From [Clostridium] clostridioforme AGR2157 (GTDB lineage Bacteria > Bacillota > Clostridia > Lachnospirales > Lachnospiraceae), in NCBI RefSeq assembly GCF_000424325.1, contig NZ_AUJR01000036.1:1-57399 (forward strand): a stretch of DNA of 57,399 nucleotides. The letters are read 5' to 3'. Made by a program: the position numbers and the translations under genes. Below are positions 1,231 to 56,275 of this stretch, one piece after another; within the stretch, counting starts at the first letter, position 1, and each line of letters begins with the position of its first letter. Below the pieces are notes generated by a model that ran no database searches, was not told where the DNA came from, and worked only from the letters and a program-made list of their open reading frames with translations.

Positions 1231-1321
1231 AAAATAGGGCGCTTTTGATGGATATGAGGTGAAATATAGGTGAATTGTTATCGCTGGCGTGACGATTTAA
1301 CGAGGATTTTTTAAGAATCAC

Positions 1322-1350
1322 TTGAATTTCATAGGTGGATTGATTATAAT
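1322..1350 (+). promoter_or_regulatory. Sigma-A-type promoter for antisense RNA 1
   Basis: TTGAAT (1322-1327), a spacer of exactly 17 bases and TATAAT (1345-1350) form a near-consensus vegetative promoter pointing right. No protein-coding start follows. It reads instead into a hairpin and a terminator that overlap the 3' end of the minus-strand peptide gene. The same arrangement (TTGAAT, 17 bases, TATTAT) occurs in the second module at 56247-56275. Confidence 0.7.
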
Positions 1351-1356
1351 AGAAGT

Positions 1357-1456
1357 GTAATAAAAAAGGAACAACCACCTCGTACAAGAGGTTGGCCTAT
1401 ATCAACGATAGAAAAATCCACCCTTTTAACGGCCAAGTTTACAAGGGTGGTTTTTC
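1357..1456 (+). ncRNA. Candidate type I antitoxin RNA, antisense to peptide mRNA 3' end
   Basis: Transcription from the 1322-1350 promoter would start near 1357 and end at the hairpin terminator 1418-1455, giving an RNA of about 100 nt. It contains a 5' hairpin at about 1373-1396 (CCTC and AACC arms around GTACAA) and the terminator stem. It is convergent with the 27-residue peptide gene and overlaps its 3' untranslated region, as in TxpA/RatA-type loci. Its segment ACCACCTC (1374-1381) exactly complements GAGGTGGT in the peptide's ribosome site, so it could also act on translation. The RNA is predicted from layout; expression is not shown. Confidence 0.55.
1412..1455. terminator. Bidirectional terminator shared by peptide mRNA and antisense RNA
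   Basis: CCACCCTT (1418-1425) and AAGGGTGG (1443-1450) form an eight-pair stem. It is flanked by an A-run on the left and TTTTT on the right, so it can end transcripts from either side. The homologous stem at 56157-56189 occupies the same place in the second module. Confidence 0.7.
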
Positions 1457-1484
1457 TGTACCCGTTTCCGGGATTAAGAAAACG

Positions 1485-1568
1485 CTACTGACTAATCTTT
1501 AAGATAAAGGTCAGTAATGCGAGAATGAACATACCAAAGGCCATTAAGTCCTTGAAGTCAAATTTCAT
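1485..1568 (-). CDS. Small hydrophobic peptide, putative type I toxin (holin-like toxin family)
   Basis: This 27-residue frame begins MKFDFKDLMAFGMF and ends in ILKISQ. ATG 1568 follows a strong GGGAGGTGG ribosome site. A short polar N-terminus (FDFKDLM) precedes one predicted membrane helix of about 18 residues, the plan of the small 'putative holin-like toxin' peptides of Firmicutes. The residues FDFKD-M-FG-F-LAL-TF recur in the 41-residue peptide at 56055-56180. It has its own promoter (1640-1668) and a convergent antisense RNA. The toxin role is inferred from size, hydrophobicity and locus layout. It is shorter than many relatives, lacking the basic tail seen in the second copy, so it could be reduced. 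Confidence 0.6.
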   Translation of the reverse strand: MKFDFKDLMAFGMFILALLTFILKISQ

Positions 1569-1639
1569 TCGCACCACCTCCCATCTTATGTAAAATGGAA
1601 GGCCAACACCTTGTAATAACATGATTGTTCCCTACGGAT

Positions 1640-1668
1640 ATTTTAGCAAATTATTTTCTATCTTTCAA
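1640..1668 (-). promoter_or_regulatory. Promoter of the 27-aa peptide gene
   Basis: On the minus strand TTGAAA (1668-1663), 17 bases and TAAAAT (1645-1640) form a good vegetative promoter, leaving a leader of about 65 nt. The leader contains AGGCCAACACCTTG in plus-strand reading (1600-1613). Its complement pairs with the mRNA 3' end (see findings). Confidence 0.65.
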
Positions 1669-55964: not shown

Positions 55965-55993
55965 ATGACACTCCTGGTAAATTATGCTATTCT
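55965..55993 (+). promoter_or_regulatory. Promoter of the 41-aa peptide gene
   Basis: ATGACA (55965-55970), 17 bases and TATTCT (55988-55993) form a moderate promoter. The leader after it (to 56054) resembles the first module's leader, sharing GTGTTGGCCT and a G-rich ribosome site followed by G-A-T-G-C/G-T-G-C. Confidence 0.5.
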
Positions 55994-56054
55994 TGTTTTA
56001 AGAAGTTATCGTGTTACAGGGTGTGTTGGCCTCATTCTAATGGGGGTGATGCCA

Positions 56055-56180
56055 ATGAAAAATCATTTTGATTTTAAGGATATGATGACCTTTGGTCTAT
56101 TCCTTTTGGCATTATTTACATTCGTTTTTACGTTTTGTAAGAAGCTACATAGAAAAACCACCCTGATACTTGGCAGTTAA
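56055..56180 (+). CDS. Small hydrophobic peptide, putative type I toxin (second copy)
   Basis: A 41-residue frame, MKNHFDFKDMMTFGLF then LLALFTFVFTF and the basic tail CKKLHRKTT. One membrane helix is followed by a Lys/Arg-rich end, the classic holin-like-toxin layout. It matches the peptide at 1485-1568 through FDFKD-M-FG-F-LAL-TF. ATG 56055 has GGGGGTG at the right spacing; a longer frame from 55965 starts inside the promoter. Its last codons run into the terminator stem, and its stop is in the loop. It converges with a predicted antisense RNA. Confidence 0.6.
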   Translation: MKNHFDFKDMMTFGLFLLALFTFVFTFCKKLHRKTTLILGS

Positions 56181-56195
56181 GAGGGTGGTATTTCT
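56152..56195. terminator. Bidirectional terminator of module 2
   Basis: ACCACCCT (56157-56164) and AGGGTGGT (56182-56189) form the stem; AAAAA flanks one side and ATTTCT the other. The peptide's stop codon lies in its loop. Confidence 0.65.
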
Positions 56196-56241
56196 ATCTT
56201 CATATTCAGCTAACCCCTTGTGGGCGGTTGTTTCTTTTATG
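56152..56241 (-). ncRNA. Candidate antitoxin RNA of module 2
   Basis: From the minus-strand promoter (56275-56247) an RNA of about 90 nt would start near 56240 and end at the shared terminator. It passes a CCC/GGG hairpin (about 56214-56229), equivalent to the 5' hairpin of RNA 1. It is antisense to the last 28 coding bases and the 3' untranslated region of the peptide mRNA. Confidence 0.5.
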
Positions 56242-56246
56242 TTTAT

Positions 56247-56275
56247 ATAATAGCAGATTTTGGTAATTTATTCAA
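56247..56275 (-). promoter_or_regulatory. Promoter for antisense RNA 2
   Basis: On the minus strand TTGAAT (56275-56270), 17 bases and TATTAT (56252-56247). The -35 and spacing are identical to the promoter of RNA 1. The remainder of the gap to 56459 holds no gene that can be supported. Confidence 0.65.

Follow-up and report, generated by a model that had tools for sequence, protein, structure and literature searches.

The window studied here, a 57,399-nucleotide stretch of the [Clostridium] clostridioforme AGR2157 genome, carries at 1322–1668 a small module that is very likely a type I toxin-antitoxin system of the TxpA/BsrG kind, in which a putative membrane toxin would be silenced by an antisense RNA. 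Among published systems its regulation appears closest to that of BsrG/SR4, rather than to that of TxpA/RatA. What is new is that the 5' leader of the toxin mRNA, as read from the DNA, is expected to pair over about 28 bp with the RNA's own 3' end, the same stretch to which the antitoxin is complementary. At the level of sequence comparison the parts of the module, their joint conservation, the covariation of this long-distance helix and a hairpin over the ribosome binding site are all established. The parts are listed below, along with a second module in the window, a diverged member of the family:

1640–1668, minus strand: toxin promoter TTGAAA-17-TAAAAT, with TG ahead of the -10, 10/12 to consensus
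1599–1631, minus strand: 5' leader of the toxin mRNA, beginning GGAACAAUC, the 5' arm of the long-distance helix (inverted repeats, duplex, covariation)
1576–1603, minus strand: hairpin that sequesters the Shine-Dalgarno (SD) sequence, 12 bp with the leader free; at least 5/6 SD bases paired upstream in 40/44 modules
1574–1581, minus strand: SD sequence GGAGGTGG, 5 nt ahead of the ATG; GG.GGT columns invariant in 44 aligned modules
1485–1568, minus strand: open reading frame of a toxin-like peptide, 27 aa plus stop, with one hydrophobic span, Hol_Tox-like
1410–1457, both strands: hairpin 1, the antitoxin terminator, two-way by sequence
1368–1399, minus strand: stretch near the toxin mRNA's 3' end that supplies the second (3') arm of this helix and is complementary to the antitoxin 5' leader (inverted repeats, duplex, covariation)
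1362–1392, minus strand: proposed distal toxin terminator, a putative assignment from hairpin 2, a U tract and a terminator-like site at 1392–1377 (minus)
1322–1350, plus strand: antitoxin promoter TTGAAT-17-TATAAT, 10/12 to consensus
1357–1458, plus strand: antitoxin RNA, about 100 nt, its start placed from the promoter
55975–56262, plus strand: second, diverged module of the family, outer limits by eye, toxin reading frame from about 56055

The original prediction for this DNA had described a hydrophobic peptide gene facing a convergent promoter that reads a short hairpin RNA, and inspection together with a promoter scan places every part it named at the position it gave. Over 5 kb the scan finds 19 promoter-like sites where shuffled sequence gives 10.6 (sd 3.2), so that a single promoter match is weak alone; the module is raised above chance by conservation, as its parts can be aligned across 46 non-redundant modules. 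These modules were drawn from 123 toxin-core hits, 55 of which had both leader motifs and 46 of which remained after near-duplicates were removed; leaving out L080 and L124, whose terminator pattern was not parsed, gives the 44 modules analysed below. The convergent layout is kept in these relatives, with the leaders, SD hairpin, peptide and hairpin 1 aligning across all 44. The patterns TTG...TAnnnT for the toxin promoter (39/44) and its antitoxin counterpart with TTG (38/44) are in place in most of them, both being loose patterns without a chance baseline, while TG.TA...T stands at the toxin promoter site in 41/44 and an antitoxin -10-like pattern is found in 43. The neighbours are indeed decayed, as had been claimed, with a DUF1016_N fragment at 824–1162 on one side and IS66 transposase fragments at 2066–2823 on the other. 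The former covers only positions 2–87 of the 137-position profile and lies directly upstream of the antitoxin promoter. Searched against Rfam at gathering scores the whole window gave no match, and a weak match to Alpha_RBS at the module site is read as chance.

The peptide encoded at 1485–1568 (minus strand), MKFDFKDLMAFGMFILALLTFILKISQ, has a best 19-residue Kyte-Doolittle mean of 2.24, which fits a small, hydrophobic, membrane-spanning peptide. The frame can also be read from further upstream, at 1622, and 27 aa is accepted as the peptide length because most of the relatives listed have no in-frame start at the equivalent of 1622. Against the Pfam family Hol_Tox (PF16935) the peptide scores 23.2 bits for a gathering cut-off of 23.3, or 23.5 when joined to its reading-frame neighbours, and 36 of 41 relatives match that model at E <= 0.01. 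The NCBIfam model PepG1, a type I toxin, is matched at E <= 0.05 by 16/41 relatives, the best at 4.1e-4 and all sub-threshold; the window peptide reaches 14.5 bits and misses its cut-off of 70. Of the chains in the PDB only 7ns1 (31 aa) matches the peptide profile, weakly (E 0.057); the label of that record is silent on identity, and from its length and PMC8309996 the chain is presumably the SprG1 peptide. The reading of the original prediction, a type I-like locus with the convergent layout of TxpA/RatA, is thus borne out by a Hol_Tox-like peptide, sub-threshold PepG1 similarity and a BsrG/SR4-like RNA architecture, with the toxin role itself a prediction.

The long-distance helix was examined through its duplex energies, its covariation and its recovery by folding. 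The presumed toxin and antitoxin RNAs begin near-identically, with GGAACAAYC, a likeness explained by the 3' arm, to which either leader can pair. In the 44 modules the duplex of leader and 3' arm averages -40.8 kcal/mol for cognate pairs against -35.7 for non-cognate pairs, a value as low being reached in 0/20,000 permutations; the cognate advantage persists when the modules are divided by sequence into groups of 21 and 23, and the cognate duplex has an average rank of 9.4 of 43. Over the 20 aligned pairs of the helix 98.4% of cells are paired, against 26.8–52.3% when the alignment is slid by 1–3 columns. Changes on both sides occur in six pairs, in 30 cells where shuffles give 8.4, and the covariation score of 0.210 against 0.159 is reached by 0/500 shuffles, in a control in which relatedness remains. 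RNAalifold recovers the helix unprompted, the mean pairing probability of its outer part exceeds 0.5 in 44/44 modules, and the proposed full-length toxin RNA folds at -99.1 kcal/mol with a z of -7.15 by dinucleotide shuffles, the corresponding z for the antitoxin RNA being -4.43.

Choosing the 44 modules by the presence of the motif GGAACAACC at both sides introduces a bias in the outer helix pairs. A separate test was therefore made of the remaining 68 hits, which had not been picked by leader motif, with 65, 62 or 63 modules left once short or redundant ones were dropped. For 65 of these the cognate whole-flank duplex averages -49.7 against -44.7, with 0/10,000 permutations as low, the cognate partner ranking first in 5/65 and having a mean rank of 19.8 of 64. 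A longest helix of at least 20 is found in 32/62 cognate against 84/372 non-cognate combinations, a moderate separation, since modules of one class have arms in common. A loose helix criterion, for which there is no chance baseline, is passed by 58/63, and 47/63 look real by eye. Matched outer arms among these unselected modules include GGCAATCGT with GCGATTGCC, GGACACCGT with GCGGTGTCC, GAAATAGTC with GGCTATTTC and GGAACGATT with AATTGTTCC. Two loci, L044 and L130, have a small hairpin (TACCCC...GGGGCATAAAT) inserted in the 3' region between two parts of the long-distance arm.

One element of the original prediction, that both transcripts end in a shared terminator, holds for the antitoxin strand, where hairpin 1 is followed by a run of at least five T's in 40/44 modules, and is less well supported for the toxin strand, where the run is three or fewer in 32/44. 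The covarying helix needs the 3' stretch and can form only if toxin transcription continues past hairpin 1 as far as about 1362, so that termination of the toxin RNA at the shared hairpin is improbable; nearly the entire antitoxin would then be complementary to the toxin RNA. In the window copy hairpin 1 is followed by five T's on both strands, and given those on the toxin strand some toxin transcripts may end there. The distal terminator-like hairpin 2 has a T run of at least four in 29/44 modules. That an antisense RNA gene overlaps the toxin mRNA is read from its convergent promoter and terminator by sequence alone.

When isolated segments are folded, the SD sequence pairs with an arm upstream of it in 40/44 modules, and in longer segments at least 5/6 of its bases are paired in 41/44. 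Constrained folding with the 3' region blocked, as bound antitoxin would do, raises the median number of pairs between SD and arm to 10.5 from 7.6, with an increase in 44/44 modules, and the median probability that the SD is unpaired falls from 0.129 to 0.011, going down in 40/44 and up by more than 0.02 in 3/44. Antitoxin binding is thus predicted by folding to lengthen the SD hairpin, with the SD already strongly occluded without antitoxin (median unpaired probability 0.13). RNAalifold also predicts a helix between the SD and the reading frame (columns 62–78 with 142–157), which in the folding model may compete with the local SD hairpin.

Direct pairing of the antitoxin with the SD is also possible, since an 8-nt direct repeat, ACCACCTC, occurs at 1374–1381 and 1573–1580 and its copy in the antitoxin leader complements the SD. 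The duplex of the antitoxin leader with the toxin 5' region averages -27.0 kcal/mol against -21.4 in shuffles, on average 16% of which are as good, and the best such duplex overlies the SD in 35/44 modules. As a main mechanism this pairing was set aside, cognate combinations doing no better than non-cognate ones (p 0.19; longest run 6.4 against 6.4).

We propose the following course of events. A minus-strand toxin RNA of about 270 nt, transcribed from about 1633 to 1362, would encode the 27-aa single-span membrane peptide, which when made would arrest or kill its own cell. This RNA would be poorly translated, since a hairpin covers the ribosome site and the leader is tied up in pairing with the RNA's 3' end. 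The plus-strand antitoxin (about 1357–1458), complementary to the last 100 nt or so of the toxin RNA, would make first contact probably through the complementary loops of hairpin 1 and then displace the toxin leader from the 3' arm, whereupon the freed leader would lengthen the SD hairpin and block translation. RNase III may then cut the duplex of the two RNAs, and the role of the whole would be the maintenance of mobile DNA. A broader reading, which we advance tentatively and give somewhat under an even chance, is that the modules form a family-wide type I subclass of the Lachnospiraceae in which the 5' end of the antitoxin mimics the toxin leader and acts by strand exchange, the released leader closing the ribosome site.

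Several features of this scheme have counterparts in known systems. As in BsrG/SR4 of the SPbeta prophage of Bacillus subtilis, there are, as read from the sequence, convergent RNAs overlapping at their 3' ends and a long 5'-3' helix, and the BsrG consensus line holds the same 5'-3' helix and SD hairpin elements as the present family. The available passages of PMC6562991 describe antitoxin binding that lengthens the SD stem of BsrG from 4 to 8 bp, to which the lengthening predicted here by constrained folding in 44/44 modules corresponds; by the figures in Table 1 of the same source the toxin has 38 aa (27 here), the SR4 antitoxin 180 nt (about 100) and the toxin mRNA 294 nt (about 270). The Rfam model of BsrG (RF01412) aligns end to end, the window RNA scoring 21.2 bits (E 0.006 over 551 bases searched) and the relative L086 32.8 bits; the gathering cut-off of 55 is not reached, and matches occur in 5/15 stretches, namely the window and 4/14 loci, one of them at E 1.7. 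TxpA/RatA of B. subtilis and SprG1/SprF1 of Staphylococcus aureus share the convergent layout and a small hydrophobic toxin, and it is towards the SprG1/TxpA side that the weak similarities of the peptide to PepG1 and chain 7ns1 point, with the difference that the published toxins are longer (59 aa for TxpA; 44 and 31 aa for SprG1) than the 27 aa found here. According to the portions of PMC4147584 and PMC6562991 at hand, RatA acts mainly via decay by RNase III with the SD structure unchanged.

The 5'-3' interaction also recalls hok/Sok and AapA/IsoA, for which PMC6733600, in the sections available, describes such a helix as the inert form of the mRNA, released by 3' trimming. A system of that kind here, with the long-distance helix as the off state, trimming of the 3' end switching translation on and the antitoxin striking the trimmed form, seems unlikely to us, even though the covarying helix is present as in hok and AapA (PMC6733600, same sections) and the start-codon region becomes slightly more open in predicted trimmed forms, from a median of 0.047 to 0.075 and 0.093. 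Folding here predicts the opposite effect on the SD from losing the 3' arm: opening of the SD, which such a system would lead one to look for, was not found in the folding of the 44 modules, the SD being more closed in 40 of them and its median unpaired probability dropping from 0.129 to 0.011 on removal or blocking of the 3' region. A review, in the part available to us, moreover assigns processing to the Gram-negative route and other routes to B. subtilis (PMC6562991). The par locus of pAD1 (Fst/RNAII), as described in the accessible text of PMC7472228, has convergent RNAs, a shared two-way terminator and direct repeats DRa and DRb at the translation start. The shared hairpin at first suggested a par/Fst reading, against which the 5'-3' helix and the inverted orientation of the long repeats then weighed. 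That the present module works in this manner, with one two-way terminator and interaction via the terminator and via direct repeats over the ribosome site, is now very unlikely, despite the convergent layout, a shared hairpin whose stretch holds ACTT[TG] in 44/44 modules, a likely start by loop contact, an SD stem-loop, occurrence on plasmids and the single 8-nt direct repeat (1374 and 1573) through which the antitoxin could pair with the SD, the duplex covering it in 35/44. Unlike in par, the long repeats lie in inverted orientation; the 5'-3' helix calls for a toxin RNA that continues beyond the shared hairpin, whose T tract on the toxin strand is poor in 32/44 relatives; SD complementarity is not cognate-specific; and Hol_Tox alone appeared among the Pfam matches of the peptide at E <= 10, with no Fst model, in a search whose filters discard most weak matches.

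Of a different sort is the suggestion of a membrane peptide that does no harm or has a regulatory role, for instance a ComI-like one, and of an antisense RNA that is an ordinary repressor. The NCBIfam model ComI does match more members of the family than PepG1 does (39/41 at E <= 0.05), the window peptide itself lying far under the ComI cut-off, but a double lock of SD hairpin and long-distance helix, an antisense RNA, and occurrence on plasmids and in multiple copies would, by analogy, suit a dangerous product, and we consider the suggestion quite unlikely. It is scarcely credible that the inverted repeat is a DNA feature, the ends of a small mobile element with the peptide as its passenger. 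Both arms do flank the module and several copies occur per genome, but the arms change together, and their mispairs, unlike those of DNA repeats, favour G-U over A-C: the outer 11 bp hold 402 Watson-Crick, 73 G-U, 3 A-C and 6 other cells, and when the two columns that give 64 of the 73 are set aside, G-U still stands at 9 against 3. This excess, mostly resting on those two columns, points to an RNA of the toxin strand. The type I toxin-antitoxin reading, with regulation of the BsrG/SR4 kind, is the one we retain.

The source genome holds two further copies of the module, one of them diverged, and one relic. The copy at C3 agrees in 26/27 peptide residues and is 93% identical over about 360 bp of the locus. 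The diverged copy is the second module of the window, with its peptide match at 56067–56132; its reading frame overruns the usual stop into hairpin 1 to give about 41 aa, and the divergence extends to the 5' leader. The relic at C35 has kept the antitoxin part and lost the peptide N-terminus and the leader; at C35:24836-25066 (L022) it retains hairpin 1, the antitoxin leader and the antitoxin promoter at 90% identity to the window, and this orphan antitoxin might still silence another copy. At two further places in the source genome only the region of the antitoxin promoter recurs, C23:13409-13562 (L025) being 95% like window 1310–1366, with a flank also 88% like 1213–1325, and C23:18173-18233 (L026) being 86% like 1316–1378. 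Both adjoin a Hol_Tox-like peptide of another sequence (MTAYEII...), an arrangement that looks as though unlike modules had exchanged promoters.

Beyond this genome the distribution is broad. A 5-row protein profile at E <= 0.001 finds the peptide in 82/397 Lachnospiraceae genomes and 76/334 genera of that family, a 41-row profile in 38/392 genomes drawn from the order, and a scan of the genome collection confirmed at least 285 relatives, with at least 79 loci kept. Among the matches listed, the best is that of [Clostridium] asparagiforme DSM 15981, whose peptide is identical. Plasmids of Enterocloster bolteae carry the module in three records, and one of them, NZ_CP053230.1 (L028), has two modules head-to-tail in tandem, flanked by the genes of an InlB B-repeat protein and a metal-dependent hydrolase. 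Annotated genes cover 0/3 of the plasmid matches, in a gene table that is incomplete. Sixteen loci on viral contigs have a relative, and the annotated phage records searched contain none.

Modules of type I are easily missed because their peptides are tiny and their RNAs unannotated. Earlier homology searches reportedly turned up TxpA-like sequences in C. bolteae (PMC6563280, in the excerpts available), and part of the present family may already have been predicted by them. In the portions of the literature available on holin-like and Hol_Tox toxins, on type I toxin-antitoxin systems including those of Lachnospiraceae, on TxpA, Fst and RatA layouts and on long-distance interactions, we did not find the module family described, and no paper came up for Enterocloster or for putative holin-like toxins with an antisense RNA; the absence of a description holds for the available text of PMC10903887, PMC6507118, PMC11318856, PMC8167048 and PMC10601692, and likewise for that of PMC7472228, PMC8309996, PMC4147584, PMC6562991, PMC6563280 and PMC6733600.

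The result is a family with named RNA parts and a structure backed by covariation, present in plasmids and chromosomes and in about a fifth of the Lachnospiraceae genomes searched. It appears to be a subfamily that lies under the cut-offs of the BsrG RNA and PepG1 peptide models and that, judging by architecture and folding prediction, would work like BsrG/SR4. If the mechanism by which the antitoxin mimics the toxin leader is true, regulation of the BsrG/SR4 type would extend to a major group of gut bacteria, and should the subclass proposed above be real, the covarying arms would mean that lock and key differ by copy class, so that several could coexist in one cell.
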